From contig ONQD01000032.1 in NCBI GenBank assembly GCA_900319865.1, positions 1-32,995 on the forward strand: a stretch of 32,995 nt of DNA, read 5' to 3'. The notes under the pieces are model-generated. The model had not been told where the DNA came from. It did no database searches and worked only from the letters and a program-made list of their open reading frames with translations. The DNA is from an uncultured Bacteroidales bacterium. Its GTDB lineage: Bacteria > Bacteroidota > Bacteroidia > Bacteroidales > P3. The stretch's first letter is position 1. Every line of letters begins with the position of its first letter. This document shows positions 4,801-32,995 of this stretch, piece by piece. Position numbers and translations under genes: made by a program.

Positions 4801-6302
4801 CCGATGGAAGCGATAGACGAGGGGAAATGAAGTTCGGTCCCCACAGCGGAGCAATCTTTGAAAGCCGCAACTCCGATAGAGGTTAGACCATTGGGGAATG
4901 TGGGGGTGGCAAGACGGAAACACCCCTGGAAAGCATGCGACCCGATGGAGGAAACAGCGTTGCCCAAAGAGACACTGGTGAGGCGGGAACAACCGAGGAA
5001 AGCCGAATCGCCGATAGTGTGGGTATTGTTGCCGAGAGTGACCTGGAAAAGCCTGCTGCAGCCATTGAACGCATTGGCGGGGATATCGACATTGGCATTG
5101 CCTGTGTGGAAGAAGAGGAGACTATCGCAGTTCTGGAAAGCACCTATACCAAGACTTTGAAAGCCGGAAGGCAGGGTTACTGCACCTGTGAGCAGATGAC
5201 AACCTTGGAAGGCATGGCTGCCAATAGAAAGCAAAGCAGCAGGGAGGGAAAGCGTTCCAGCGATGGTTTGACCGATGAAGGCATTAGCAGGCACACGGGT
5301 AACACTGTCGCCCAGCACAAGAGTGGAAAGGGCTGAGAACGGACGAAAACCGCACTGTGGAAGGTCGGCGGTGTTGGCCGCGGTGAAGGAGGCATCGGAG
5401 ATGTTGCGGGCATTATAATAGAGATAGCTCACCTGACTGCAACCACCAAAGGCATTTTGACCAATGGAGGAGACGTTGACTCCGATGATTACGGTGTCGA
5501 GCTGTGTGGCCAAAGTAAACGTTGAAGGCTGGATGTACTGCACAGCGTCACCGATGACCAGTTTGTTGAGGGACGCAACGGGCAGGGCAGAACGTTGCCC
5601 CTGCGAGGTAGAATAGCCGCAAACGGCATTAACCGCATTATAGTAAAGATACTGGACGTTGTTGCAACCCGAAAAGATAGTGTGGGCAATATGGGTGAGC
5701 GAGTTGCCAATGTAGAGCGAATCGAGACCGGTGCAGTTGGAGAAAGCCCAGTTGCCCAAAGAGGTGACGGAGTTGGGAATGGACAACGAAGTGAGAGAAG
5801 AGCAGCCCTCGAAAGCAACGCTGGCAATGGTGGCCACAGAATTGCCCAAATGGAGGGAATGGAGGTTGCTGCAGCTTTGGAATGCAGCCACGCCGATAGT
5901 GGTTACATTATCGGGGATGACAATGGATGAGAGGGCGGTACAATTGTAGAAGGTGCCGTCGCCAATGATTGAGACAGAAGAGGGGATGGAGACAGCCATA
6001 AGGCCCGTGCAAGAATAGAAAGCATTGTTGCCCAAAGAGATGACACGATAGGAAGAGCCCCCATGGGAGACGGTGGCAGGAATCTGGAGAGTGCCCGAAG
6101 GCTTGATGTATCCATGATAGTAGGATTCATTGGAATAGTTGGGGTAGGTGACCGCAACGGTACTGTCGGACAAGATATTGTAGTACAAAGTCTGACCCGT
6201 GTTGCAAACGGAGGAGAAGTCATAGGCTTGGGCTGATGCGGCTGAGGCCATAATGAAGGTCAGCACAATCATTGCCTTGAACATTTGTATTCTATTCTTC
6301 AT
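1893..6302 (-). CDS. BspA-like LRR surface protein with InlB repeats and T9SS tail
   Basis: This is a 1469-residue exported protein. Residues 1-26 form a signal peptide ending in ASAQA. Residues about 40-565 carry BspA/LRR_5 repeats (pattern AFxxCxxLxxVxLPxSVxxIG), as in Bacteroidales and Treponema adhesins. Residues about 568-1391 hold twelve copies of a roughly 69-residue divergent InlB B-repeat (Flg_new_2 type; core GTVSGGGxYxY, ATPxxGYHFVQWNDG, NPRxxxV, TAxF). The last 78 residues are a linker plus a T9SS type A sorting domain (FDMLGRRV, AGVYLV, KAVVR), so the protein should cross the outer membrane by the type IX system and be anchored or released at the surface. Adhesion is the usual proposal for this architecture, but the ligand is unknown. 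It is the last gene of a minus-strand run, 93 nt after the Fn3 lipoprotein gene, and ends 24 nt before the strong hairpin. Confidence 0.9.
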   Translation of the reverse strand: MKNRIQMFKAMIVLTFIMASAASAQAYDFSSVCNTGQTLYYNILSDSTVAVTYPNYSNESYYHGYIKPSGTLQIPATVSHGGSSYRVISLGNNAFYSCTGLMAVSIPSSVSIIGDGTFYNCTALSSIVIPDNVTTIGVAAFQSCSNLHSLHLGNSVATIASVAFEGCSSLTSLSIPNSVTSLGNWAFSNCTGLDSLYIGNSLTHIAHTIFSGCNNVQYLYYNAVNAVCGYSTSQGQRSALPVASLNKLVIGDAVQYIQPSTFTLATQLDTVIIGVNVSSIGQNAFGGCSQVSYLYYNARNISDASFTAANTADLPQCGFRPFSALSTLVLGDSVTRVPANAFIGQTIAGTLSLPAALLSIGSHAFQGCHLLTGAVTLPSGFQSLGIGAFQNCDSLLFFHTGNANVDIPANAFNGCSRLFQVTLGNNTHTIGDSAFLGCSRLTSVSLGNAVSSIGSHAFQGCFRLATPTFPNGLTSIGVAAFKDCSAVGTELHFPSSIASIGDSAFHSSAPISLIVMESANPPAIGPNTFASATSLTAVHVPCGAILNYYMADYWNLLQNYSESIPFQVTVGVNNPVMGTAEVILQPTCSSHIARIQATANPDYHFIHWSDGNTNNPRLLIVSSDTAFTAVFVSDTSNIFVYSSDTTRGTVTGSGRYGYNQPVVITATPTANNHFQRWNDGNTSNPRYFLATQDSVFTAIFLSNISVVQVLNANPTMGSVSGSGIYNYQDMAVISATPLPGHHFVSWNDGVLVNPRTISVSQDTVFTASFAIDIYNIQGISNNTTMGTVSGGGLYEYHNTVTITATPNYGYHFVQWDDSSTVNPRTFLVDGDSVFTAIFAPNVYTLSVTVSDTNMGAAYGGGSYNYNNVASISAQPVFGYHFVQWNDGNIDNPRTVVVTGNITYTAQFAINNYSLLVNSNSDSMGTVLGSGNYVHNTQIMISAIPNHGYHFVQWNDGITANPRLITLIQNATYTAQFAPNSYVVSASSNNPSFGTVSGGGTYNYHSSATLSAVPSYGYHFVQWSDGVSANPRSLLVSGDTMIVAQFAVNDYNVTALSDNPTIGTVAGGGVYNYLSTVFLSATAVPHHHFVGWSDGDTTNPRTLVVTSDTLLTAQFAIDTHVVSILSSDTLMGYVSGGGNIPYGTDIFFSAVARFGHRFLGWNDGNTQNPRMLHVESDTVFTALFEAREFTLSVYSNDSTLGQVTAGGSYTYGTLVTLEAQPAEHCYFQQWSDGVTSNPRRLVLTSDSVVYARFAALEQYTVTVASNNPSMGSTSGTGRYYGGENVIIRATPFQHYVFEQWSDGNTDNPRVVSVFGDFTYTAVFDYEKFTITAQPNNSDLGAVYGSGKYNYGSEVTLTAHPFPSVRFDGWSDGETNPSRVITVTHNATYTALFTDLLGIDDIESPAISITTQDNNIIVSGASGKSVAIFDMLGRRVSLVTKADEKQSFSVPTAGVYLVCVEGTPAQKAVVR
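2130..4601 (-). repeat. Twelve tandem InlB-type B-repeat units within the LRR gene
   Basis: Twelve consecutive units of 64-70 residues (about 207 bp each) encode the stalk of the surface protein; boundaries are approximate. Units 4-7 share GYHFVQW, and their DNA is locally very similar around that block, while outer units are more diverged. The central units may therefore be the youngest, or may be kept alike by recombination. Unit 1 is shorter and lacks the GGGxY loop. Confidence 0.85.
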
Positions 6303-11516: not shown

Positions 11517-13976
11517 TTAGCTTTCCTTCTTTTTACTATCAGCATCGCTTGACTCACCGTAACCGTAACCATAGCCATAACCATAGCCATAGCCGTAACC
11601 ATAACCGTAACCATAACCATAGCCATAACCGTAGCCATAGCCGTAGCCGTAGCCACCATAACGGCGCTTGATAACGGGAACGTCGGTCATAATAATGGCC
11701 ATGTTCTTGAACTTACCCTTTTCATTCAATTCCTGTATGAAGGGGAACGAACTCTTGTTCAGATAGCCAACACGCATAATATATGTGGTCAAGTCAGCGC
11801 AATGGTTAATAATCGAAGAGTCTGCAACAATCTGGGCAGGAGTGGAGTCGAGGATGATATAATCATATCTCTCACGGAGATAAGCAACCAGCTTATCCAT
11901 TTTATCATCCAACAAGAGCTGCGTTGCATTTGGCGGAGTCTTCTCACAAACAATATAGTCCAGACAAGGCGAAGTCTCACTATGCATGATAATATTCGAG
12001 AATTCCTGTTCCTTGCCAAGCATATAGTGGATTAAGCCCATGCGGTTATGACGGTCAATTGTCTTAGACAAGCTGCGTTTACGCAAGTCGCAGTCAACCA
12101 AGATGGTCTTTTTACCCAAATAAGCCAACGACAATGCAAGGTTAAGTGCCACATAAGACTTACCCTCGCCAGGAATGGTCGAGACAGTCTGAATCACCTT
12201 CTGGCCTTCCTTCAAGAAGAACGGGATATTCGAATGTAATATTCGGAATGCCTCCGTGACCACATCGGTACCATTGGCTGTAACAATGATTTCGTCGTTG
12301 GCACGGCCTTCCGGCTTCTGCGGTATCTCGCCAAGGATAGGAATCGTCAAAGCCTTCTCGATATCAACTTTGGAACGGAGTTTCACATTAAAGAAGTTGA
12401 TTCCAAACATGATGAGAGCCGGCAGGGCGATACCAATGATAAGTCCGACCAGTATATGCATCGACAAGTGGGGACCCAGGTTGGAACGTTTAGCGGGTTC
12501 CACAATTTTGGCATTCTCCACCGTAACAGCAAGGTTCATGGCGTTCTCCTCGCGCTTGCTCAACAGATAGAGGTAAAGTTCCTCTTTAATCTTCTGCTGA
12601 CGGGTAACCTCGGTTACTGCCTTAGTCTGCGTAGGCATAGCCGAAATCTGCCCCTGAGCACGTGCCTCTTGCTGTCTGGCGTTACGCAACTTCACCTGGA
12701 GAGAATTAATGAGGTTATCAACTGAAGTGATAATTGCAGCACGGTTGGCGTCCATCCGCTGAACCTTCTCACGTACTTGCGGGTTCTGTGGACCGGCAGT
12801 ATTCAGAAGCTTGCGATACTCCAACACCTGTTGGTTGTACTGACTTATCATACTTTGAACGCCTGCATTGGAAATGCCCACATTTGCCGGAAGCAGTTCC
12901 TCCCTATTGGCAGGATCGCTCAAATATGAACGGATATCCTTAGTAATCGACAATTCGGCCTCAAGACTTACAACCTCGTCTGTATACCTTGTTCCAGTTT
13001 GGAGCAGCGTACCCGAAGCACTGGTCAAGTCCGGCAGACGGGAACTCTTTTTCAATTGCTCAACCTGAGAGTCCACATCCTCAAGTTCGCCCGAAATAAG
13101 GGCAATACGGTCTGACACGAATTGTTCAGTCTTTTCAGCAATCTGGTTCTTGTCATTAATGCCGTCTTCGTTATATGCTTCAACAATGGCATTGGCCACA
13201 TCTCTGGCCCTTGCCTCGTTCTTGTCGGTATACACGATGGCCAAAACAGAAGAAACCTTGTCAACGCGCGAAACGGACAAACTACCAACCACCTGATAGG
13301 CTTTGGTCATCACAGGGCATTCCGACATATCATATTTCACATTGAAATTATTCTTTGTGAAATAAGGAGTCTTGTCGATAGTGAACGATATCATTTTGGA
13401 CAACGCCACAGGCTCGGTGAAATATGCCACACCTTTCTTGCCGGCCGACCGTACATTATACTCGTATCGGCTCATATCCAATGGAGTCACCTCTACCGTA
13501 AGGTTCACCTCCGAATTTTCAGCATACTGTGTGTATACCTTCATCTCCAGAGGACTGTCCTTATAGTAAGAAATCTTGGTGAACAGGCCATTGCGGCTAC
13601 AAGTCTTATTCAGTCCATACTTGGTCACCACATTTTTTGCCAACGACGAAGAGCGCATCATGTGTATCTCATTCTCCAAAGAATGACTACCCATGTCATC
13701 GCCCATACTGTTCAATATGGCATCCATATTGCGGTACTGATAGAAATTCCTCGAGGACTGGTCCCTAACCATGATCGTTGTTCTGTACTCATAGGTCTTG
13801 GGCTTGGTCTTGTAAACCACACCTGCAATAACCAGACACACAAACAACGAAAGCGCAAACCAATACCAGTTATTGATTACCAAAAATACTATATCACGCA
13901 ACGAGATGGTACTTTCAGTATCCTGGTTCATGGATTGGGGGGAGTGCTGATTGATCATTTGCTGTTGAACTTCCAT
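11517..13976 (-). CDS. wzc: Wzc-type polysaccharide co-polymerase and tyrosine autokinase
   Basis: This 819-residue inner-membrane protein controls length and export of surface polysaccharide. It has a Wzz domain with a first membrane helix (residues about 28-47, NWYWFALSLFVCLVIAGVV), a long periplasmic coiled-coil region, a GNVR-type segment (VTRQQKIKEELYLYLLSKREE), and a second helix (MHILVGLIIGIALPALIMF). A cytoplasmic BY-kinase follows: Walker A STIPGEGKSYVAL, Walker A' ILVDCDLRKR, and Walker B YIILDSTP. The tail is a (Tyr-Gly)n tract followed by an acidic/Lys end. I start at the ATG at 13974-13976 (MEVQQQMINQHS): the frame is open upstream to 14099, but that would overlap the wza coding end, and the extra Cys/Arg-rich residues are not Wzz-like. 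It is 46 nt downstream of wza. Confidence 0.93.
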   Translation of the reverse strand: MEVQQQMINQHSPQSMNQDTESTISLRDIVFLVINNWYWFALSLFVCLVIAGVVYKTKPKTYEYRTTIMVRDQSSRNFYQYRNMDAILNSMGDDMGSHSLENEIHMMRSSSLAKNVVTKYGLNKTCSRNGLFTKISYYKDSPLEMKVYTQYAENSEVNLTVEVTPLDMSRYEYNVRSAGKKGVAYFTEPVALSKMISFTIDKTPYFTKNNFNVKYDMSECPVMTKAYQVVGSLSVSRVDKVSSVLAIVYTDKNEARARDVANAIVEAYNEDGINDKNQIAEKTEQFVSDRIALISGELEDVDSQVEQLKKSSRLPDLTSASGTLLQTGTRYTDEVVSLEAELSITKDIRSYLSDPANREELLPANVGISNAGVQSMISQYNQQVLEYRKLLNTAGPQNPQVREKVQRMDANRAAIITSVDNLINSLQVKLRNARQQEARAQGQISAMPTQTKAVTEVTRQQKIKEELYLYLLSKREENAMNLAVTVENAKIVEPAKRSNLGPHLSMHILVGLIIGIALPALIMFGINFFNVKLRSKVDIEKALTIPILGEIPQKPEGRANDEIIVTANGTDVVTEAFRILHSNIPFFLKEGQKVIQTVSTIPGEGKSYVALNLALSLAYLGKKTILVDCDLRKRSLSKTIDRHNRMGLIHYMLGKEQEFSNIIMHSETSPCLDYIVCEKTPPNATQLLLDDKMDKLVAYLRERYDYIILDSTPAQIVADSSIINHCADLTTYIMRVGYLNKSSFPFIQELNEKGKFKNMAIIMTDVPVIKRRYGGYGYGYGYGYGYGYGYGYGYGYGYGYGYGYGYGESSDADSKKKES
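11556..11660 (-). repeat. Tyr-Gly hexanucleotide tract in the Wzc tail
   Basis: Sixteen consecutive 6-nt units (TAY GGN) encode uninterrupted Tyr-Gly dipeptides at 11651-11556, preceded by one more Tyr-Gly-Gly. BY-kinases carry a C-terminal tyrosine cluster that is autophosphorylated in trans. Here the cluster is a low-complexity tract. Third-base variation (TAT/TAC, GGT/GGC) is scattered, so it is not a perfect DNA repeat. Confidence 0.95.
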
Positions 13977-14022
13977 AGTTGTTTTGATTATTTCTTTATG
14001 ATTAACTCCATTAACAAACTTA

Positions 14023-14844
14023 TTATCTGTTGAGATAGTATGTCGACAAGATATAATAGTAGAAGACCGACGACAACACCGACACAATCGACACAGCACT
14101 CGAGATGTAAGTCAAAATCATCGGGTCGCGTTCTGCATTACGTTTCTTGCGCATGTTTGGCTCAACATAAATCACATCGTTCTGATGTAAATAATAGTAC
14201 GGTGAATCAAAGACCGACTGGGAAGTCAAATCCAGCTCTCCGATGGTACGGAGGCCGTTCTCCTCACGTATGATAGTCACATTCTGACGCTGACCATAAA
14301 TGGTCAAATCACCGACCATACTCAGGGCTTCGAAAATGGTGAGACGTTCGCCCGACACCACAAGCTGTCCGGGACGCATAACATCACCGAGTACACACAC
14401 CCTGAAATTCATCAACTTGACAGTGACAACGGGGTCTGTAATATGCCCTTCCGATACCAGCCTCTTCTCTATCAAGGAAGCCAATTCGTTGTGGGTCAAA
14501 CCCAACACATGTATCTTGCCCAACACAGGGAAAATAATATCACCATCATGGTTAACCAAATAACCGGACACAACCGAGTGGCCCGGATTCATCACTGCTC
14601 CCGAAGGGGAAACAACAATCTTATTGGTTTCCTGGTTGAACTGGATAGTTGCCTCTGGCGTTTCACTCTCCACATAAATGCTGAGCAGGTCGTTAGCCTG
14701 GATACCGGCCGAAAACTGACCCTTCAAGGCAAATGCGGAATCCCTCTGCGCATCATGAATGTATGCAATCTCTTGCACATTTCTGCATGAAGCAAAGAGC
14801 ATTGTGAAACCAACCGCAAACAAAAATAACTTGTTTATCTTCAT
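14023..14844 (-). CDS. wza: Wza-type polysaccharide export outer-membrane lipoprotein
   Basis: This 273-residue protein has a signal peptide and lipobox (MLFASC, Cys 20). A Poly_export domain follows (LLSIYVESETPEA, GYLVNHDGDIIFPVLGKI, GLTHNELASLIEKRL), then an SLBB domain (VCVLGDVMRPGQLVVSGERL, FEALSMVGDL) and a C-terminal hydrophobic helix (ILTYISSAVSIVSVLSSVFYYYIL). It would form the periplasm/outer-membrane channel that pairs with the Wzc-type kinase encoded 46 nt downstream. It is the first gene of the minus-strand polysaccharide run, with a TATCTTTG promoter about 80 nt upstream. It is shorter than E. coli Wza (one SLBB unit rather than two), as is usual in Bacteroidota. Confidence 0.93.
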   Translation of the reverse strand: MKINKLFLFAVGFTMLFASCRNVQEIAYIHDAQRDSAFALKGQFSAGIQANDLLSIYVESETPEATIQFNQETNKIVVSPSGAVMNPGHSVVSGYLVNHDGDIIFPVLGKIHVLGLTHNELASLIEKRLVSEGHITDPVVTVKLMNFRVCVLGDVMRPGQLVVSGERLTIFEALSMVGDLTIYGQRQNVTIIREENGLRTIGELDLTSQSVFDSPYYYLHQNDVIYVEPNMRKKRNAERDPMILTYISSAVSIVSVLSSVFYYYILSTYYLNR

Positions 14845-24444: not shown

Positions 24445-26919
24445 ATGTTACTATCTGAATTACAAACTGGTGAGAAAGGTGTCGTTGTTCGTGTATCGGG
24501 CCATGGGGCTTTTCGCAAACGCATTATCGAGATGGGATTCATCAAAGGAGTCACCGTTGAATCCATCTTAAATGCCCCTCTCAACGACCCCATTAAATAT
24601 CGAATCATGAATTTCGAGGTGTCACTTCGTCGCAGTGACGCCACAAAAGTGGAAGTCATAAGCCTTGATGAATTCCAAACCAACCAATACTTCACTGAGA
24701 CTGAATCAACCGAAGACAGTCAACCCTCACCATCCAACACATCGTTCAGCGAAAACAAGTCACCACGAGGCACAATAAAGCCAAATCCCTTCAAAACAAT
24801 CAATGTTGCCCTTGTCGGCAATCCCAACTGTGGAAAAACCAGTATATTCAACATCGCTGCCCATGCACATGAACGAGTCGGCAACTACAGTGGCGTTACC
24901 GTCGACGAGAAAATCGGCACATTCCACCATGGTGGATACACATTCAACCTTGTCGACCTCCCCGGAACTTATAGCCTCAGCGCCTATTCTCCGGAGGAAC
25001 TATACGTACGCAAGCACATCATCGAGAAAAACCCAGACATCATTCTCAATGTCGTAGATGGAAGCAACCTCCAACGCAACCTCTACCTCACCACCCAACT
25101 CATCGATATGGATATCACCATGGTGATGGCTCTCAACATGTACGACGAGCTGCTCCGCAGTGGCGATAAACTCGATATCGACCAACTCTCCACATTGCTC
25201 GGTATGCCCATTGTGCCTACCACTGGACGAAATGGTGATGGTATCGACAAGCTATTCGACAAGATAATCGAAGTATTCGAAGGACGTGATACCAAATCCC
25301 GACATATACATGTAAACCATGGGAAAATCCTCGAGCAACACATCAGCACACTCCGCACCGAGCTCTACAATCATGGCTTCAGCGACAACCTCTCAACTCG
25401 CTTTCTTAGCATCAAACTTCTTGAAAACGACAAACAGCTTGAAACCTATGCCAATGAACACGACCCAGACGGAAGTGTGATTCGTATGAGAGATCAAATC
25501 GCTGAAGAGTATATACGAAACAGCGGACACGTCTTTGTCAATCAGATGAATGACAAAGGCCACAAAGTATCTCTCGATTCCCATCCACAAGACATCGAAA
25601 GTGCTATCACCGATGCCAAATACGCATTCGTCCGCGGTGCCTTGGCCGAGTGTTATGTCAAGAACGAGAAAACAACACTTCACCAACTCACCGACAAAAT
25701 CGACTCCATTGTCACCCACCGGTGGCTTGGCTACCCTGTTTTCCTCATCTTCATGTTCATCACCTTCTTCTGCACCTTCGCCATTGGGCAATATCCTATG
25801 GATTGGATTGACGCCCTTTTCACATGGTTTGGTGAAATTGTGGGCGATGCCATGTCGCCAGGCCCCCTCCGCAGTCTTCTTGTCGATGGTATCATCACCG
25901 GCATCGGGAGCGTTATCGTGTTCCTGCCCAACATTCTAATCCTTTATCTTTTCATTTCATTCATGGAAGACAGCGGCTACATGGCCCGAGCTGCTTTCAT
26001 CATGGACAAGCTGATGCATCGTATGGGTCTACATGGTAAAAGTTTCATCCCCATGATAATGGGATTCGGATGCAATGTTCCCGCCATTATGGCTACCCGC
26101 ACCATCGAAGACCGGAAAAGCCGACTCCTCACCATGTTGGTCATCCCCATGATGAGTTGTTCCGCCCGCATCCCCACCTATGTCATACTTATCTCGGCAT
26201 TCTTCAACCGCCATGCTGCCCTCATACTGACAGGACTCTACATGCTGGGCATGATTATGGCCGTTTTGATGGCCAAATTGTTCAGCCGTTTCGTAGTCAA
26301 GGGCGAGAGCCTTCCGTTTGTCATGGAACTCCCACCCTATCGCATGCCTACAGCCAAATCAGTTTTGCGCCACACATGGGAGAAAGGCAAGGAATATCTG
26401 AAAAAGATGGGCACTATCATTCTGTTCGCCAGCATTCTGGTATGGAGTCTAGGCTATTTCCCACACCACGACCGCTACGCTACCGCCCACCAACAGATGG
26501 AAAACTCCTATCTTGGTATGATAGGCAAGACCATTGAACCCGTCATGACTCCCTGTGGATTCGATTGGAAACAAAGCGTCTCTCTCCTGGCCGGTGTTGC
26601 CGCCAAAGAGGTCGTGGCCAGCACAATGGGTGTACTCTATGCCTCGGCCGAGGAAGAGTCACAACTCAACGAGGTAGGCCTCGATAGTGACGAGGGAGAA
26701 CTCCGCATAGCTCGCCTTGTCCACGAAAACATGACCCCTCTATCAGCTGCCAGCATGCTCATTTTCATACTCCTCTACATGCCTTGCCTATCCACCATCA
26801 TCGCTATCAAAAATGAAAGTGGCAAATGGAAATGGGCATTGTTCACTATGCTCTATACTATTGGCCTCGCCTGGATAGCGGCCACCGCATTCTTCCAAAT
26901 TGCCTCATTGCTACTATAA
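24445..26919 (+). CDS. feoB: FeoA-FeoB fusion, ferrous iron transporter
   Basis: This 824-residue protein imports Fe2+ across the inner membrane. Residues about 1-74 are a FeoA SH3-like domain (LLSELQTGEKGVVVRVSG, RIIEMGFIKG). A polar linker (about 80-115) joins it to FeoB. The G domain has Walker A GNPNCGKTS (residues 125-133), DLPGTYSL (G3) and NMYDE (G4). The membrane part has two gate motifs, with GCNVPAIMATRTI and MMSCSARIPTYVIL carrying the conserved Cys residues, and a C-terminal Gate block (LLAGVAAKEVVASTMGVLY). FeoA-FeoB fusions are typical of Bacteroidota. It starts at an ATG about 27 nt downstream of the -7 box. A small FeoB-associated Cys-rich protein is encoded 2 nt downstream. 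Confidence 0.96.
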   Translation: MLLSELQTGEKGVVVRVSGHGAFRKRIIEMGFIKGVTVESILNAPLNDPIKYRIMNFEVSLRRSDATKVEVISLDEFQTNQYFTETESTEDSQPSPSNTSFSENKSPRGTIKPNPFKTINVALVGNPNCGKTSIFNIAAHAHERVGNYSGVTVDEKIGTFHHGGYTFNLVDLPGTYSLSAYSPEELYVRKHIIEKNPDIILNVVDGSNLQRNLYLTTQLIDMDITMVMALNMYDELLRSGDKLDIDQLSTLLGMPIVPTTGRNGDGIDKLFDKIIEVFEGRDTKSRHIHVNHGKILEQHISTLRTELYNHGFSDNLSTRFLSIKLLENDKQLETYANEHDPDGSVIRMRDQIAEEYIRNSGHVFVNQMNDKGHKVSLDSHPQDIESAITDAKYAFVRGALAECYVKNEKTTLHQLTDKIDSIVTHRWLGYPVFLIFMFITFFCTFAIGQYPMDWIDALFTWFGEIVGDAMSPGPLRSLLVDGIITGIGSVIVFLPNILILYLFISFMEDSGYMARAAFIMDKLMHRMGLHGKSFIPMIMGFGCNVPAIMATRTIEDRKSRLLTMLVIPMMSCSARIPTYVILISAFFNRHAALILTGLYMLGMIMAVLMAKLFSRFVVKGESLPFVMELPPYRMPTAKSVLRHTWEKGKEYLKKMGTIILFASILVWSLGYFPHHDRYATAHQQMENSYLGMIGKTIEPVMTPCGFDWKQSVSLLAGVAAKEVVASTMGVLYASAEEESQLNEVGLDSDEGELRIARLVHENMTPLSAASMLIFILLYMPCLSTIIAIKNESGKWKWALFTMLYTIGLAWIAATAFFQIASLLL

Positions 26920-26921
26920 TT

Positions 26922-27113
26922 ATGTTACAGAACGTCCTGGTCATCATCATCATCGCAGCCGCAATCTTCTTTACTGTCTACAAATTGATTCAAACAGTCA
27001 AGGGCAATAAGGGATGCAACTGTTCTCACTGCCCCTACTCCGGCAAAGAGTCATCCCAATGCCATTGTTCTAATTGCTCCATAAAACTACCTGACATCAA
27101 TCCTGACAACTAA
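26922..27113 (+). CDS. FeoB-associated Cys-rich membrane protein
   Basis: This 63-residue protein has one N-terminal membrane helix (NVLVIIIIAAAIFFTVYKLI) and a Cys-rich tail (CNCSHCPYSG, CHCSNCS), matching the FeoB-associated Cys-rich family. It starts at the ATG 2 nt after the feoAB stop, so it is co-translated. The cysteines could bind iron or protect the transporter; the role is analogous to FeoC only by position and is unproven. The frame is open further upstream, but that part lies inside feoAB. Confidence 0.88.
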   Translation: MLQNVLVIIIIAAAIFFTVYKLIQTVKGNKGCNCSHCPYSGKESSQCHCSNCSIKLPDINPDN

Positions 27114-27271
27114 TTATCCATAACAAAGAGGGCGTCACAAAAGTCACCTTATTTGCCGATATGAGAAGACGACTGTTTCAAAGAAAAGAACAGATGAGGT
27201 TGGCAATCCCCCTCGCGAGGTTACAATGCGAGGAGATGGGGCATAGAAGAAGCAACAGTGATAACAAGGTC

Positions 27272-27313
27272 ATAAAAAATGAGCCACGGCAAGCAGAGTG
27301 TGCTTGCCGTGGC
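27272..27313 (-). terminator. Terminator of the first AraC gene (repeated element)
   Basis: A 12-bp perfect stem GCCACGGCAAGC/GCTTGCCGTGGC (27283-27294 and 27302-27313) with a 7-nt loop. On the minus strand it is followed by CTCATTTTTTATG, giving a U-run. A near copy ends the second AraC gene. The stretch 27114-27271 shows no gene. Confidence 0.85.
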
Positions 27314-27355
27314 TGTGGTAGTCTTACGGAATGCGGACTGTCGTAGGGTTGGGGT

Positions 27356-28258
27356 TTAGCTTTTGGCCTGCATCCGCTTGCGGTATTCGGCAGGGGTGAA
27401 GCCTGTACCTGTGCGGAAGAATTTGTTGAAGTTGCTCTGATCCATGCCGCCGAGCTCGAGGGCTATGGAGAATATAGACTGGTCGGAATATTGCAGCAGA
27501 CGACAGGCCTCTGTGAGGACACGTTCTTTGACAATAGCAGCCGGAGTGCTGTTCACAGTTGTGCGGACAGCACTGGCGAGTGCTTTTTCGGAAACAGCAA
27601 GACTCTCGGCATACTGCCACACAGACCAACCATCCTTGAAGTGTTCTTCCAACAGGTGACGGAAGCGGATGTACAGTGCATGGCTGGGGTTTGTAATGTC
27701 CATCGTCAAACCTACAAAGTTGGGAATCGAGCGCTGCACTATGATAAGGATGAGTTGGAACAAGTATTGCAAAGCCCTGCGGTGACCAAAGGCACTCGGA
27801 GGCTGGACACTCTCGGTACGAATATCTTCAATAAGGTCACGTATGATTGGAGCTGCCACACTGCTCAGTTGGTAGAAAGGCTGGGCATAGGCGGCATCAA
27901 GGATGTTGTATTTCAGTAGAAGATTTTCCTTGTGCGTGTCGTCCATAAGGAAACTTTCATTAAAACAGATGGATGTGCCGCAAGTTCCCTCGTTATGGGC
28001 GATATACATCACCTGTCCGGGCTGTACAATGAAGACGGTGTTAGGCCCGTAATGGTAGTTCTTTCCGTCAACTACGGTGATACCGTTGCCCGACGACACC
28101 CAAGCAACTTGGTAGAAATCGTTACGCTGAGGCTGTGCCGTCACTTCGCGATTGTTACCCAGTACATCCTCCAAATTGTACAATGTAAACCCCATCTCTT
28201 GGTCTTGAGGAAACAAACTATTTGTTTTTATCTCATTGTTATCCAGTTGCTTCTTCAT
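27356..28258 (-). CDS. AraC-family transcriptional regulator 1
   Basis: This 300-residue protein has an N-terminal cupin-like sensing domain (residues about 35-110: FYQVAWVSSGNGITVVDG, YGPNTVFIVQPGQVMYIAHN) and a C-terminal AraC-type double HTH. The first helix pair is WQYAESLAVSEKALASAVRT; the second is SIFSIALELGGMDQSNFNKFF, with GFTPAEYRKRMQ as the classical end. The effector is unknown. It is divergent from a 99-bp leader element and a set of exported proteins, which are its likely targets. The promoter (TATATTTG) is at 28291-28284. It has only weak similarity to the second AraC protein at 31851-32756, mostly at the HTH. Confidence 0.88.
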   Translation of the reverse strand: MKKQLDNNEIKTNSLFPQDQEMGFTLYNLEDVLGNNREVTAQPQRNDFYQVAWVSSGNGITVVDGKNYHYGPNTVFIVQPGQVMYIAHNEGTCGTSICFNESFLMDDTHKENLLLKYNILDAAYAQPFYQLSSVAAPIIRDLIEDIRTESVQPPSAFGHRRALQYLFQLILIIVQRSIPNFVGLTMDITNPSHALYIRFRHLLEEHFKDGWSVWQYAESLAVSEKALASAVRTTVNSTPAAIVKERVLTEACRLLQYSDQSIFSIALELGGMDQSNFNKFFRTGTGFTPAEYRKRMQAKS

Positions 28259-28283
28259 TTATCAGAACTTTGAATACATAGTG

Positions 28284-28291
28284 CAAATATA
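28284..28291 (-). promoter_or_regulatory. Promoter of AraC gene 1
   Basis: TATATTTG on the minus strand, about 26 nt before the ATG. The same GCAAATATACAAA context recurs before AraC gene 2 (32792-32804), so the regulator promoters are also alike. Confidence 0.6.
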
Positions 28292-28420
28292 CAAAAAAGC
28301 AATGATATAGAAATCTTTTTTATACTTCAGATTTCTGGTATATTTCCTCCTTTCGATGGTGAAATTCGAAAAGTACCATGAAAGGGAAGAATTAAATAAC
28401 TCCACACCCCAGCAATGGAT

Positions 28421-28519
28421 GTACTTTTGCATCAGAAAACAGGGATAAAAAAGTTTTCAACAAGTGACTGAAAAACCAAGTGATTAAGGGTAAAAATATC
28501 AATAAAGAAAGGATAAAAA
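28421..28519 (+). repeat. 99-bp promoter/leader element, copy 1
   Basis: These 99 bp are identical to 32897-32995. The copy starts exactly at a -7-like TACTTTTG (28422-28429), so most of it would be 5' leader RNA. Inside are a 6-bp hairpin (GAAAAC 28435-28440 with GTTTTC 28453-28458), a direct repeat CAAGTGA (28461-28467, 28477-28483; 16-nt period), and two GGATAAAAA motifs (28443, 28511). Sequence immediately upstream is only loosely similar between copies. It could be an AraC target, a conserved 5' UTR, or part of a repeat family. Confidence 0.95.
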
Positions 28520-28529
28520 CAGAAGAAAT

Positions 28530-28634
28530 GTGCGGCCTGACAGAAAGGACAGGATAGCGACCAAACTGTTTTATTGCAGTATCGTGGCGGTGATAATCGC
28601 TATAGACATATTGGCAATAATACTGACGAAGTAA
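28530..28634 (+). CDS. Possible 34-residue single-pass membrane peptide
   Basis: A GTG-started frame of 34 codons directly after the leader element reads RPDRKDRIATK, then LFYCSIVAVIIAIDILAIIL, then TK. This is a basic N-terminus followed by a roughly 20-residue hydrophobic helix and a terminal Lys, the typical layout of an inner-membrane small protein. A purine-rich AGAAGAAA precedes it. Against it: the start is GTG, the frame is short, and a competing out-of-phase ATG at 28528 gives only 9 codons. I recognise no family. Between it and 28789 only short frames are seen. Confidence 0.35.
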   Translation: MRPDRKDRIATKLFYCSIVAVIIAIDILAIILTK

Positions 28635-28788
28635 AAGTTAATCAACATAATGTTCAACCTCAAAAAACGACCATGAAAGAAGACACCAGTTAAAAACAAA
28701 ACATCAAACAGAAACACAAGGCAATGTACAAAAAAACAAACTTAAAAAACAATAATTTATCAAAGTAATAACATTTAAATTTTCAACA

Positions 28789-29694
28789 ATGAAAAAACAA
28801 ACTAAATTTTTCGTAGTGGCTATCGCAGCCTTAATCACAATTGGAAGCATCGTTTTTGTTTCCTGCAACAAGGAAAAAAACAATGATGCAAATGGGAATC
28901 TATCAAGAGGTCCGGAGAAAATCACACTTGAATCACCAAGAAATGCAAACAACCCGTATGACACAATTGGTGCTTTGCATAACATCCTGATGGATTATTG
29001 TAGGGAGAAAGTGAGGGAGTATTACATGGATTATGGGGAATGGGACGTTCCCGCTGCCGACGATATTGCAACAATAGTATTGGCAAACCATGGGATTACA
29101 GCACCTTATTTAAATTATGACTATATTACTTCATTATTTGCCGATAGTGCCTCATGCTATGTCGATTATGCATCGACATGCGGTGCCTCGACTATTGAAA
29201 AGGAGACAGTATACAACATCGTATCTTTAGTCAGGAATCTGGTGTTGACAAATGCACCATACTCTGAGATAAAGGAGCTTATAGTAAATCAGGAAGCGAT
29301 TGTCTTACAAAATCAACTTCTGAGCAGTAACGAAAAGTTTGATATTCTTTCTGCCACTTCGGTTCTAAGACATTCCTTGCATTATTGGTTAACCAATAAC
29401 GGCTTTGATGCAGGCATGAGCCTTCCTGCCAAAGATGACGATCCGCAGCCAACTGACAACAGAGCCAGTGTATGGGAAATCGCTTTGGCAGATTTAGGAG
29501 GAGCATTATCGGGTGCATTGTCAGGAGCGTCAACTGGTGCTAACGTTTCATCAAGTTTTGAAAACCCTGTACCAGTTATAATAGTAGGTGCTGTAATAGG
29601 TGCAATTGACGGTGCCGTGAAAGCAAGCTGCGATAAGGCAACAGAAAAAGCGAAAGAAAATCAGACTCAACAATCTCAGGGTGGAGAACAATAA
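28789..29694 (+). CDS. Exported lipoprotein with glycine-zipper C-terminal region
   Basis: This 301-residue protein has a signal peptide and Cys after ITIGSIVFVSC, probably a lipobox (the residue before Cys is Ser). Residues about 40-190 are mixed helical, with Cys at CYVDYASTCG. The notable part is residues about 228-285: a helix IALADLGGALSGALSGASTG followed by a second stretch VPVIIVGAVIGAIDGAVKAS. These are small-residue (G-x-x-x-G/A) patterns like those of glycine-zipper proteins and class II bacteriocins. The last 20 residues are Gln/Lys-rich. I do not recognise the family. It is divergent from AraC gene 1, downstream of the repeated leader, and followed by a strong terminator. The DNA is more A/T-rich than the next two genes. 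Confidence 0.7.
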   Translation: MKKQTKFFVVAIAALITIGSIVFVSCNKEKNNDANGNLSRGPEKITLESPRNANNPYDTIGALHNILMDYCREKVREYYMDYGEWDVPAADDIATIVLANHGITAPYLNYDYITSLFADSASCYVDYASTCGASTIEKETVYNIVSLVRNLVLTNAPYSEIKELIVNQEAIVLQNQLLSSNEKFDILSATSVLRHSLHYWLTNNGFDAGMSLPAKDDDPQPTDNRASVWEIALADLGGALSGALSGASTGANVSSSFENPVPVIIVGAVIGAIDGAVKASCDKATEKAKENQTQQSQGGEQ

Positions 29695-29695
29695 C

Positions 29696-29735
29696 AAGGA
29701 TAGGGGGAGTCCTTCCCCCATCCTTATTTCTTATT
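29696..29735 (+). terminator. Terminator after the glycine-zipper lipoprotein
   Basis: AAGGAT-A-GGGGGA (29696-29708) pairs with TCCCCCATCCTT (29714-29725) with one bulged A, followed by ATTTCTTATTATTTG. It is strong, so the beta-barrel gene downstream (38 nt later) is probably expressed at a lower level or from another promoter. Confidence 0.85.
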
Positions 29736-29773
29736 ATTTGAAATATTCGATTCATCGATAAATAACTTAAATC

Positions 29774-30391
29774 ATGAAAAAAGTTATCATTCTGCTGGCC
29801 TCGGTGCTGGCAATCAGCGCGGCAAGCGCGCAGGAGAAGAAAGGTGGCCTGGTCTTTGAGTGCGGGATAGGGACAACCCGGTACGGAAACTATTCTGCAA
29901 TGTCGGTCTTTGCCGACCCCAGCGACAGCTACAGCCTGCTGCCGACGAAGTATGTGACATTCGGCTACCGCCACAGCGACGGCTGGTTTGTGGGGCTGAC
30001 GCTGAACAACGACGAGGGGAACACATCGTTCCAGACCCTGAACGAGAGATTCATTAACTCAAATATCCTGCTCGACTTGCGCAGGTTTTTCACGATGACC
30101 GACAGGATAGAGCTGGTGACTGGTGTGGAAATGGGGTTGCTTATCCATAGAAACACCTTCGACTACGACAATGACCATTACTCATTCAGGCGGCATGGCA
30201 TGAGTGCCCGTTACCTGATGGGTCTGAACTACCAATTGACGAAGAACCAGATTTTCGGGATAAGGGTGCTGTTCCCCTGCTATGGCTCCCTGACGGGCGA
30301 CAAGCCTGAGCTGCCCACAGGGCTCTCGGCCAACGACAAGACTCAGTCCATCGGCTGTGGCTTTCAGTTCGGGTATGGCATTGAGTTCTGA
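29774..30391 (+). CDS. Small outer-membrane beta-barrel protein
   Basis: This 205-residue protein has a signal peptide (KVIILLASVLAISAASAQ, cut after SAQ). The rest is alternating strands with aromatic ends (FECGIGTTRYGNYSAMSVF, YVTFGYRHSDGWFVGLTLN, FGIRVLFPCYGS) and a final IGCGFQFGYGIEF ending in Phe, the usual outer-membrane insertion signal. A barrel of about 8 strands would fit the length. Function unknown; I cannot assign it to a named OMP family. It sits between the glycine-zipper lipoprotein and a GC-rich lipoprotein gene, 90 nt before the latter. The DNA is clearly richer in G/C than the gene before it. Confidence 0.7.
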   Translation: MKKVIILLASVLAISAASAQEKKGGLVFECGIGTTRYGNYSAMSVFADPSDSYSLLPTKYVTFGYRHSDGWFVGLTLNNDEGNTSFQTLNERFINSNILLDLRRFFTMTDRIELVTGVEMGLLIHRNTFDYDNDHYSFRRHGMSARYLMGLNYQLTKNQIFGIRVLFPCYGSLTGDKPELPTGLSANDKTQSIGCGFQFGYGIEF

Positions 30392-30481
30392 CATCCTATA
30401 GACTGCTGAATACACATCCGGCTGCATTCCTGTCGGAAGCTACTTGTTAATTATTCATCAACACACAAAACCTCAAAAGAT

Positions 30482-31276
30482 ATGAGAACATCGGCAATTA
30501 TCTTCGCGTCCATTTTTCTCGCTGCCGCAGTGTCGTGCAGCGATGGGGAGAAGGCTTCTCCCTCACCGTCGGGACGCGTGGCACGGATGACCGTCACGCA
30601 GCACACGCCCGACACAGCCTATACGCTACAGTACACATTCCAATGGCAGGACACGCTGCTGGAGTGTGTCAGCTGCCTGCTGCCCGACGGGCGCACCGAG
30701 CGGCTGGAGTGCCGCTACGGCGGAACACTCCCGGCGGAAACTGCCGTCTATGCCGCCGACGGCAAGATGCATGAACGGTGGACCTACCACTATGCCGGGA
30801 AGAGACTCGTCGGCCAGACCCTCACCATGGACTGCTGCACGGCAGAATGCACCTTCCGATACGAAGGTTCGCGCCCCGTAGGCATCAGCTACCGCCGCCA
30901 TGCCGCCGACGGCAGGGAACACGACTACGAACACCGCTTTGCATGGCAGGGCGGCAACGTGGCGGAAGAGACCTTGCTGGAGGACGGGGTCCCGGTGCAG
31001 CGCACCGCCTTCCGCTACGGCGATACTCCCAACCCCTTACGCCTTCCCCTCGGAATGGAGCTGTCCACCTGCTGGAGCCTGACCCGCACGGGTGTAATGG
31101 GAGATTATTACCACATGCTTCCGCTGCATTTCAGCGCGGGCTGCCCCGTGGCGGCAGACTGCGACGAGGGGGCGTCGTACACGGCCGAGTACACCTGCGA
31201 CGGCGACGGCCGCCCCACCACCGCCACGCTGCAACATGGCGACATACGCACCGAAATCACTGTTGCCTACTTCTGA
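30482..31276 (+). CDS. GC-rich lipoprotein, beta-repeat type (DUF4595-like)
   Basis: This 264-residue protein has a signal peptide with lipobox (AAAVSC, Cys 19). The body is repeated beta-hairpins: YTLQYTFQWQDTLLECVSCL, ERWTYHYAGKRLVGQTLT, AECTFRYEGSRPVGISYRR, YEHRFAWQGGNVAEETLLED, TAEYTCDGDGRPTTATLQHG. This is the YxFxWxxxxLxxxxxx pattern of DUF4595-like and RHS-like Bacteroidota lipoproteins, probably surface-exposed. The function is unknown. The G/C content is visibly far above that of surrounding genes, with codons ending in G/C nearly throughout, which may indicate transfer. It follows the beta-barrel gene by 90 nt and ends before a short hairpin at 31371. Confidence 0.7.
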   Translation: MRTSAIIFASIFLAAAVSCSDGEKASPSPSGRVARMTVTQHTPDTAYTLQYTFQWQDTLLECVSCLLPDGRTERLECRYGGTLPAETAVYAADGKMHERWTYHYAGKRLVGQTLTMDCCTAECTFRYEGSRPVGISYRRHAADGREHDYEHRFAWQGGNVAEETLLEDGVPVQRTAFRYGDTPNPLRLPLGMELSTCWSLTRTGVMGDYYHMLPLHFSAGCPVAADCDEGASYTAEYTCDGDGRPTTATLQHGDIRTEITVAYF

Positions 31277-31370
31277 ACGTTTTCATTAAGACGAGCGTAA
31301 AGAGGGTGTCTCAAATGTTTTTTGGAACACCTTTGAATTATCATAATAAGGTAGTTTCTATTGATAAATC

Positions 31371-31405
31371 GAGGGCGAGATGGTTAGTCTCGCCCTCGTT
31401 GTTCT
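31371..31405. terminator. Hairpin downstream of the GC-rich lipoprotein gene
   Basis: GAGGGCGAGA (31371-31380) pairs perfectly with TCTCGCCCTC (31388-31397) around a 7-nt loop, followed by GTTGTTCTT. A plausible terminator in plus orientation; it could also end the minus-strand DUF4248 remnant. The region 31277-31370 has no gene. Confidence 0.65.
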
Positions 31406-31461
31406 TAATGTTTAGGGTTCCTCGCTGTCGTTTGTTTGATTCAGCGGTGCTTGGTTCCCTT

Positions 31462-31661
31462 TCAGGGTTCGCCGAGGAAGGAGAAGAGGATTTGGAGCTG
31501 GCGGGGTGAGAGGCGTTTCTGAGGTGGGCGGTAGCCGGTGGGACGGAGGGCATCGAGGAGCCCTGAGGTGAGGTTGATTTCTCTTGCGAGGAGTCGGCTT
31601 GCGGTTTTCTTGCTGCAATGGGGAAATAGGCTGCCGCGAGGTCTTGCTTGAACTGGTACAT
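31462..31661 (-). pseudogene. Frameshifted DUF4248-family small protein
   Basis: On the minus strand the ATG at 31661 starts MYQFKQDLAAAYFP. The reading then continues in the +1-shifted frame as HCSKKTASRLLAREINLTSG, LLDALRPTGYRPPQKRLSP and RQLQILFSFLGEP, ending at 31462. Restoring one C in the C-run (GGGG at 31620-31623 on the plus strand) joins the two parts into a normal protein of about 66 residues. The tail (GLLDALRPTGYRPPQKRLSPRQLQ..F..LGEP) is the DUF4248 family signature of Bacteroidales. Such genes are often near HU-like proteins and amidases in accessory loci; none is seen here. A sequencing error in the homopolymer cannot be ruled out. Confidence 0.75.
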
Positions 31662-31755
31662 AATACTGAAATTTTTGATTAAACAATTGGCCAAGAAGGC
31701 CGGAATTATCGTTGTCAGGAAAATTTCATATTATGCATTGTGTCGCCACAAGGTC

Positions 31756-31797
31756 ATAAAAAATAAGCCACGGCAAGCGAGGTGTGCTTGCCGTGGC
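31756..31797 (-). terminator. Terminator of the second AraC gene (repeated element)
   Basis: GCCACGGCAAGC (31767-31778) pairs with GCTTGCCGTGGC (31786-31797) around a 7-nt loop, followed on the minus strand by TTATTTTTTATG. The stem is identical to that at 27283-27313. Over 50 bp (31748-31797 versus 27264-27313) there are only 4 mismatches, one between the A-run and the stem and three in the loop. Confidence 0.88.
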
Positions 31798-31850
31798 GAT
31801 AAATCAATAGAGTTGATGGGGCAGACTTGCAAACGAATACGGAGCAACTA

Positions 31851-32756
31851 TCAGTTGGAAGGTTTCTTCTTCCTGATTTCCTCTGATTTGGTTTTCCTGT
31901 ATTCAATAGGGGTGGCACCCGTCAGTTTTTTAAACACCCTTATCATCTGTGATGAGGAAGAGAAATTCAAGCGTTCGGCGATTTGGTCTACCGTTAGATT
32001 GTCTGGGTCAAAAAGTAGTAGTTTTATCTGTGTCACGGTTCTTATGTCCACCCACTCCATGACTGTGTGATCGGACCTTTCTTTAACCACGACACTTAGA
32101 TAGTTGGCCGAAACGCCAAGTTTATCGGCATAGTAGGCTATGGAACGCGGAGCAGGACCGTTTGCGTTGAGGAGTTGCATGAATTTTGAAACAATCGTCT
32201 GTTTTCGGTCACCCATAGCTGGAGCCTGAAATCCGTTCTGTGCAGAGTTGAGGCCCTGAATGCGGAAAAGCATGGAGATAACGAGATGCTCAAAATCGCG
32301 TTTGCCCGCCGTGGGCGATTTGAGTACTTGGTTCATCATTTGGAAGAAATTCTCGAATACCTGTTCCTCGTTGTAGCCGAGTCGTAGCTTTACGGCATCG
32401 TATCCCACCAGACCGGCATAGGCCATGTTTGCGAAACGGAAAGAGAGGACACGGGCGTTAAAGTCGCGCGAATGACCGTTAATATTGATAATATAGTTGG
32501 CAGGTATCATTAGCAATTCGCCCTCCGAAGTATGAAAGTCCACATAATTCAACGTATGGTCGACAGAGCCTTTCTTAACCAGCATTATACGGTGTTCGGG
32601 AGTACGCAAAGGCGCATCAATGACAGCATATTTCACTATTGCCGAATTATCCATAACAAGGCAGAAATCCTTCTCAATAATATTTGCTCCAGTATTGTCG
32701 ATAACGCGGAGTTCGGCCTTCATCGAATCGTCAATTACTTTTATCTTCTGAGACAT
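31851..32756 (-). CDS. AraC-family transcriptional regulator 2
   Basis: This 301-residue protein has an N-terminal cupin-like sensing domain (about residues 30-110: CLVMDNSAIVKYAVID, RIMLVKKGSVDHTLN, GELLMIPANYII). The C-terminal AraC HTH reads IAYYADKLGVSANYLSVVVK (helix 1 pair), LTVDQIAERLNFSSSSQMIRVF and KKLTGATPIEYRK, a classical AraC end. Compared with AraC 1 the protein is diverged, but the neighbourhood is the same: matching terminator, same-type promoter, and the identical 99-bp leader on the other side. Its target is probably that leader at the right edge of the window, whose downstream genes are not visible. Confidence 0.88.
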   Translation of the reverse strand: MSQKIKVIDDSMKAELRVIDNTGANIIEKDFCLVMDNSAIVKYAVIDAPLRTPEHRIMLVKKGSVDHTLNYVDFHTSEGELLMIPANYIININGHSRDFNARVLSFRFANMAYAGLVGYDAVKLRLGYNEEQVFENFFQMMNQVLKSPTAGKRDFEHLVISMLFRIQGLNSAQNGFQAPAMGDRKQTIVSKFMQLLNANGPAPRSIAYYADKLGVSANYLSVVVKERSDHTVMEWVDIRTVTQIKLLLFDPDNLTVDQIAERLNFSSSSQMIRVFKKLTGATPIEYRKTKSEEIRKKKPSN

Positions 32757-32792
32757 ATTCTTAACTGTTGTAATTTAAGTATTTTCAATTTG

Positions 32793-32826
32793 CAAATATA
32801 CAAATACTTTTTCACATATCGGCAAA
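32793..32826 (-). promoter_or_regulatory. Promoter of AraC gene 2
   Basis: TATATTTG on the minus strand (32800-32793), with TTTG at 32826-32823, 22 nt apart. The sequence just around the -7 box (GCAAATATACAAA on the plus strand) is the same as before AraC gene 1. Confidence 0.6.
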
Positions 32827-32896
32827 AGCGTGTGTCATCGTAGAGAAATTGAGCAAAGCCCGCAAGGAATCAGCAATTTTATTTGACAGAATGACA

Positions 32897-32995
32897 GTAC
32901 TTTTGCATCAGAAAACAGGGATAAAAAAGTTTTCAACAAGTGACTGAAAAACCAAGTGATTAAGGGTAAAAATATCAATAAAGAAAGGATAAAAA
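32897..32995 (+). repeat. 99-bp promoter/leader element, copy 2 (cut by window edge)
   Basis: Identical to 28421-28519 over all 99 bp, ending only because the window ends. It starts at the -7-like TACTTTTG (32898-32905). An A/T-rich TTTTATTTG lies just upstream (32877-32885), but TTTG itself is only 12 nt away, too close for a standard -33 box. Transcription would run off the right edge into genes not seen. Confidence 0.95.

Follow-up and report, generated by a model that had tools for sequence, protein, structure and literature searches.

The 99 bp at positions 28421 to 28519 of the window (the whole stretch of DNA analysed here, 32,995 nt, which makes up all of contig C64 in an 84-contig draft genome from an uncultured Bacteroidales bacterium) are the beginning of a longer leader that is common to a family of AraC-controlled operons for surface or secreted proteins in rumen bacteria. 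The same 99 bp stand again on the plus strand at 32897 to 32995, in direct orientation and 4,476 bp away; a repeat search and a genome search both gave 99 of 99 identical bases, and no third copy of this sequence was found in the 2.9-Mb draft genome. We consider it likely that recombination between modular AraC-controlled operons, acting through the shared leader, is behind this arrangement, and that the length of 99 bp comes from an assembler that stopped at one k-mer.

Much of what the initial annotation had described at these positions, including the base-for-base identity, was confirmed. Both copies are divergent to genes of AraC type, and both encoded proteins score above the curated Pfam cut-offs for the C-terminal HTH_18/HTH_AraC domain that marks this family. 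AraC1 (27356 to 28258, minus strand, 300 aa) matches HTH_18 (3.3e-16) and AraC_binding (1.3e-6) and is 97% identical in the relatives G021 and G071. AraC2 (31851 to 32756, minus strand, 301 aa) matches HTH_18 (1.7e-17) and is 98% identical in RGIG6036 and 97% identical in RUG360. As had been noted, the two proteins are strongly diverged from each other, with 63 of 273 residues (23%) identical. Their operators, or intergenic regions, lie at 28259 to 28420 for AraC1 (152/162 to G021 and 155/162 to G071, one gap each) and at 32757 to 32896 for AraC2 (138/140 to L092). To the left of the two copies only a background alignment was obtained (43/78 over the last 90 bp), and the first identical base is the G of GTACTTTTG. 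The word TACTTTTG at 28422 to 28429 (plus strand), found again at 32898, fits the sigma-ABfr -7 box TAnnTTTG at both sites and is conserved in relatives; a passage of PMC7366714 gives TAnnTTTG as the Bacteroides -7 consensus. Because identity starts at this -7-like box, the shared part would be transcribed leader, a proposal of the initial annotation that the sequence supports, and we take the leader to be a transcribed 5' UTR.

Three putative cargo genes follow the first leader on the plus strand. Cargo 1 (28789 to 29694) encodes a probable 301-aa lipoprotein, with an N-terminal signal and Cys recognized by eye and a Gly-zipper match below the curated cut-off. Cargo 2 (29774 to 30391) resembles an outer-membrane beta-barrel protein, by a Pfam OMP_b-brl match (9.6e-6) whose 26.3 bits fall short of the curated 28.7. 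Cargo 3 (30482 to 31276) is a probable lipoprotein with no Pfam family above cut-off, and its relatives recur in operons of the family: a similar N-terminal sequence was seen by eye in G021, G139, G110, G071, G122, and contig C52 of the window's own genome.

The 99-bp element that the initial annotation treated as a unit was not confirmed as one. The window being the complete contig, copy 2 is its last 99 bases and is truncated by the contig end, a probable k-mer boundary. The comparison drew on 29 of the 84 contigs, whole or in part; 5 of these were masked, and the 48 ends of the other 24 were compared with 553 kb of the genome. Four ends, at three junctions, recurred by at least 30 bases, and every one of them did so by exactly 99. 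They are the end of C64 and the start of C76, together with a pair that match one another, the start of C71 and the end of C82. A fifth end, that of C7, had a match of only 29 bases. One fixed overlap length is the trace that unresolved repeats leave in de Bruijn assemblies, and the recurring ends of this genome show just such a length. A passage of PMC5368935 likewise connects contig-end effects at position k with repeats that are beyond the resolution of assemblers. As the recurring contig ends overlap by exactly 99 bp, the 99-bp length and the right edge are most likely assembly-made: 99 is very probably the assembler's k-mer, with the length of identity set by the assembly, and the right edge most likely has no biological meaning. 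Since a single fixed overlap of 99 bases is what unresolved repeats leave, the true repeat is probably 99 bp or longer. All genomes compared here are drafts, and repeat lengths taken from draft contig ends can be k-mer sizes and not biology.

Relatives of the leader were sought in 120 genomes of the genus. The covariance model R1, built from 11 leaders, gave 16 matches above 67 bits in 12 of the 120 genomes; these are largely strong by construction, since 11 of the 16 went into R1 and the remaining 5 equal or closely resemble them, and most were already known from BLAST. Two of the 16 have a contig end some 100 bp or less to their left. Among the 14 strong leaders with a readable left flank, 13 have a divergent AraC gene to the left (in G086_C64 only the first part of the gene), assigned by alignment or similarity and not by Pfam, and by eye for G016_b and G081. 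An ordinary genome-wide repeat, the outcome that the initial annotation had named as refuting its reading, is ruled out by the low copy number (two in the window's genome, and 16 strong matches among 12 of the 120), and the regularity of the AraC neighbor points the same way. The distance from leader to AraC gene is 124 to 164 bp; only G016_b departs from this, its longest ORF starting at 22 bp. The one readable leader without a divergent AraC gene to the left, G016_a, precedes an operon that runs towards an AraC gene.

The model also gave 7 weak matches, of 33 to 44 bits, in the 120 genomes. A divergent AraC-like gene adjoins four of them; it resembles AraC2 or AraC3 in three cases and was judged by eye in the fourth. 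One is beside a LuxR-type (GerE) gene, and two look like chance. A looser BLAST search with 240 bp reached 29 of the 120 genomes at E <= 0.01, many of the matches being only 19 to 33 bases long, and an exact 61-base pattern had no match in genome_contigs. In named records, AraC2 has relatives in metagenome-assembled genomes from sheep omasum and roe deer rumen, in RUG360, and in another uncultured Bacteroidales bacterium; three of these four loci were taken as the same contigs as G111:C67, G139:C19, and G081:C36 and are thus not independent. Viral contigs were considered as a further source of AraC2 relatives, and none of the five candidate stretches encodes one. A literature search, which covered the best-ranked papers only and few subscription papers, returned no title on the leader family or on exchange of AraC cassettes.

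Loci of relatives, compared with each other, show the left edge at the TACTTTTG box again, and the first 45 nt of the window leader are 77 to 91% identical to all 14 other leaders compared. G071_C88, whose contig starts within the leader, was for this reason left out of the leader comparisons, and three short G086 matches (C112, C119, and C109) were omitted from the relatives' leader alignment. L092, added later, is absent from the alignments behind the left-edge, -7 box, and shared-cargo comparisons.

The leaders and their neighboring regulators differ in how far they have diverged from relatives. Both window AraC genes with their operators are 94 to 99% identical to their relatives; both leaders are only 83 to 86% identical to theirs, yet identical to each other. 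For AraC2, gene and operator match L092 (Prevotella sp. RGIG6036) at 1023 of 1046 positions and the leader at 83 of 98 (Fisher p = 1e-7), and the corresponding values against G111 are 1015/1046 and 83/97 (p = 7e-6). For AraC1 they are 1025/1064 and 81/98 against G021, and 1029/1064 and 81/97 against G071 (p about 1e-6 in both). These tests count mismatches only and take sites as independent. With the operator alone the comparison is weaker (p = 5e-5 for L092, 0.035 for G111, 0.006 for G021, and 0.001 for G071). The control pair L092 and G111 has no such break (leader 96/99, p = 0.5). The other control, G021_C57 against G071_C26, shows excess leader divergence too (p = 6e-6), which speaks against recombination as the cause here; this excess may reflect frequent exchange or simply a faster-evolving leader.

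Thus, a segment that is discordant with its flanks is alike between two loci, the pattern by which gene conversion is recognized. Both loci carry one leader, which differs from the leaders of the closest relatives identified for each locus, and the break falls at the -7 box, which is where homology between different loci begins and hence where it would be expected if inter-locus recombination were the cause. Gene conversion and a moving leader, two of the options listed in the initial annotation, are those to which the comparison with relatives points. A donor leader was not found in the draft genome or the 120 genomes of the genus. Across the family, leaders hardly track regulator class, mean identity being 0.861 within classes (23 pairs) and 0.828 between them (125 pairs). 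Against recombination, the two leaders of one genome are mutual nearest neighbors in only 2 of 5 two-copy genomes (G000 and G016), and for G016 this probably represents local duplication, since its operators are alike too; the relation is one-way in G021 and G081 and absent in G075.

The regions on the other side of the AraC genes are mosaic as well. A conserved 3' flank of AraC1 with a terminator-like hairpin (27264 to 27325) is 97 to 98% identical over 62 bp to sequences behind AraC3 of G021 and AraC4 of G110. Behind AraC2, and so behind both window regulators, there is a terminator-like repeat at 31748 to 31797, 92% identical to 27264 to 27313 and 94 to 95% identical over 53 to 61 bp to loci of G021, G110, and G139; it forms part of a longer left flank (31461 to 31797) held in common with the AraC3 locus of G021 (93.5% over 338 bp). 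Two G021 loci, whose AraC proteins are 27% identical, have closely similar leaders (91/97) and agree at 87 of the 95 bp that follow the AraC stop codon, with operators that align as background only, and the same 3' flank follows AraC4 of G110 (93/95 to the G021 AraC1 flank). The AraC1 coding region minus its last 60 bp is nearly the same in G021 and G071 (839/843), and their 3' flanks are unrelated. It counts against the recombination reading that a terminator-side flank (match of at least 33 bp) is present in only 5 of 12 relative loci searched. One further weak copy of the flank is on C54 of the window's genome (78%), with no AraC-like gene recognized by eye within 1.5 kb. Cargo also varies in its company: G122 and G086_C64 have different operators and the same first cargo, and the genes next to the AraC2 locus differ between the window, G111, and G139. 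Contig C52 begins inside a lipoprotein gene, with 199 bp that are 99% identical to the gene of G122, and the first part of this gene was not found in the draft at that level of identity.

We propose that the family comprises operons for secreted or surface proteins, in most of which a divergent AraC-type gene is the driver, and that the shared leader starts at a sigma-ABfr-type -7 box and extends beyond 99 bp. An AraC-plus-operator core would lie between the terminator-side flank and the leader, both of which recur around different, strongly diverged cores, and the cargo genes come after the leader. Cores and cargo could then be exchanged among loci, and across species too, by homologous recombination in the shared flanks. 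In the window's genome, gene conversion or unequal crossing-over would have given both loci one leader, either homogenized or duplicated. The sharp left edge would be at the -7 box for the reason that homology between different loci starts there, and the apparent length would be due to the assembler stopping one k-mer (99 bp) into the repeat. Recombination as the cause is what we infer from these comparisons. A more far-reaching proposal, which we offer tentatively and with more doubt than confidence, is a regulator-exchange system, in which AraC-plus-operator cores of about 1.07 kb are swapped as cassettes, within and between species and by ordinary homologous recombination, between the conserved terminator flank and the conserved leader, so that sets of surface or secreted proteins are put under new sensors. 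If this is right, two flanking sequences around strongly diverged regulators act as joints, and rumen Bacteroidales have a simple route to rewire which signal controls which surface proteins.

The leader was also inspected for features that might act in cis. A possible 5' hairpin, GAAAAC-N12-GTTTTC (28435 to 28458, plus strand), sits near the expected transcript start; RNAalifold predicts 6 pairs, each kept in 12 to 14 of 14 sequences, and both words occur in 15 of 18 leaders. None of the 6 pairs has changes on both sides in the 14 sequences, so that compensatory change is not seen. Folding z-scores against shuffles are -0.53 for the window leader, -0.82 for G142, and -2.15 for G021_C57. No Rfam match reached the gathering score in 26900 to 32995; the best one to overlap the leader, on the opposite strand, scored 21.8 bits where the cut-off is 40. 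These results do not show the leader to be a structured RNA. The CAAGTGA direct repeat of 16-nt period, earlier named as a candidate protein site, was rejected as one: the repeat is complete in 2 of 18 leaders, which are the two identical window copies, and is not conserved, the first CAAGTGA, taken by itself, occurring in 7 of 18 and the second copy missing from all 16 relatives' leaders examined.

Downstream of leader copy 1, alignment to relatives reveals a small hydrophobic ORF (28530 to 28634, plus strand, GTG start, 34 aa), a shortened version of one that in G021_C1 has 48 aa, an ATG start, and no Pfam match; similar sequences follow the leader in G139, G110, G111, and G071_C88. A mini-ORF, MKEDTS*, lies at 28673 to 28693 (plus strand). 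A pattern search for MKxDTS* gave 4 matches in 119 genomes, all downstream of leaders of the family (3 of the 4 being sequences used to make the pattern, so that only the G018 match is new), and none with the reversed control. Relatives of the window mini-ORF occur in leaders of G081 (twice) and G018, and it is possibly a leader peptide.

Functional constraint is one alternative to recombination. Purifying selection on a cis-acting RNA or regulator site within the leader, the functional reading of the initial annotation, would accord with the conservation of the first 45 nt and of the hairpin words across the family, the better-than-shuffled folding of G021_C57, and the mini-ORF downstream of family leaders. 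Selection of this kind should also have kept the leaders of close relatives alike, and these differ at 14 to 17 of 97 to 98 sites, with operators differing less; the missing compensatory changes, the z-score of the window leader, and the Rfam result weigh against it too. Selection alone does not explain the identity well, and we regard it as very unlikely to be what holds it. It is also conceivable, if improbable, that the identity of copy 2 is itself false, two similar leaders having been merged by the assembler at low k. Copy 2 coincides with the final 99 bases of a contig, where support is weakest, and at AraC2 the leader of the close relative L092 is a different one. Reasoning from how assemblers generally work, however, a k = 99 graph needs reads that join the AraC2 operator to the leader, and bubble removal needs shared ends on both sides, whereas here the left sides differ; the same unusual leader is, moreover, found mid-contig at locus 1.

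A tandem duplication, amplification, or excised circle of the 4,476-bp unit of leader 1, cargo 1, and AraC2, with the graph looping back into leader 1 and ending the contig there, has a comparably small chance of being correct. It would account together for the complete identity, the sharp edge, and the contig stop; no contig of the draft overlaps the right side of leader 2, and G016 offers a parallel with two direct leaders 2,966 bp apart and operators that are alike. Yet the last copy with its own leader should then break the contig about 21 bp into the leader and not 99, C52, which starts inside a cargo gene, could continue leader 2 after a gap, and nothing directly points to extra copies.

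Recombination through a shared leader resembles several known systems in part. As in intragenomic gene conversion and concerted evolution, repeated segments resemble each other within the genome more than they do the corresponding segments of relatives, and their edges are sharp at the point where homology starts. The homogenized segment here is, in contrast to typical gene conversion, a leader between strongly diverged regulators and not a gene, and the low proportion of two-copy genomes with mutual nearest neighbors departs from concerted evolution. In the surface-antigen systems sap of Campylobacter fetus and vsa of Mycoplasma, a conserved 5' region is joined to different cargos. The present family is similar in joining a shared 5' segment to different surface cargos and differs in that the readable loci, with one exception, have a divergent regulator of their own. 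Judged by excerpts of PMC4747536 and PMC8748976, Bacteroides invertible promoters have in common with it Bacteroidales surface functions and TAnnTTTG promoters, whereas the copies in the window are direct and separated by kilobases. Two inverted repeat pairs were detected in the window (14-base seeds, at least 20 bp), with arms 13.8 and 31.7 kb apart, and neither closely encloses a leader promoter. Long 5' UTRs with small ORFs have been described in B. thetaiotaomicron, for single mRNAs in the passage concerned (PMC7366714); the leader here, of about 360 nt, similarly has small ORFs before the first large gene, and differs in that one leader recurs before many operons.

Several additional observations were made. 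An imperfect 30-nt inverted repeat (87%) joins 1084 to 1113 with 32782 to 32811, its arms being 31.7 kb apart and the second one in the AraC2 operator. At G018:C45 (L110 / L157) a related leader is beside a LuxR-type (GerE) regulator in place of AraC, with apparent remnants of a cargo lipoprotein and a Gly-rich peptide downstream. Two G081 loci with different AraC genes (L095 and L086) share the leader from about +70 to +260 (174/183, 10 gaps), and another repeat with three dispersed copies in G086 (L087, L088, and L089) contains GAGTTTTCAACAAG, a word resembling one in the leader. Elsewhere in the window, repeats spaced 207 nt extend from 2137 to 4525 within a 1469-aa ORF (1893 to 6302, minus strand), and a 12-nt repeat array of the CCATAGCCGTAA type occupies 11544 to 11663, near the 3' end of an ORF at 11517 to 14099 (minus strand).
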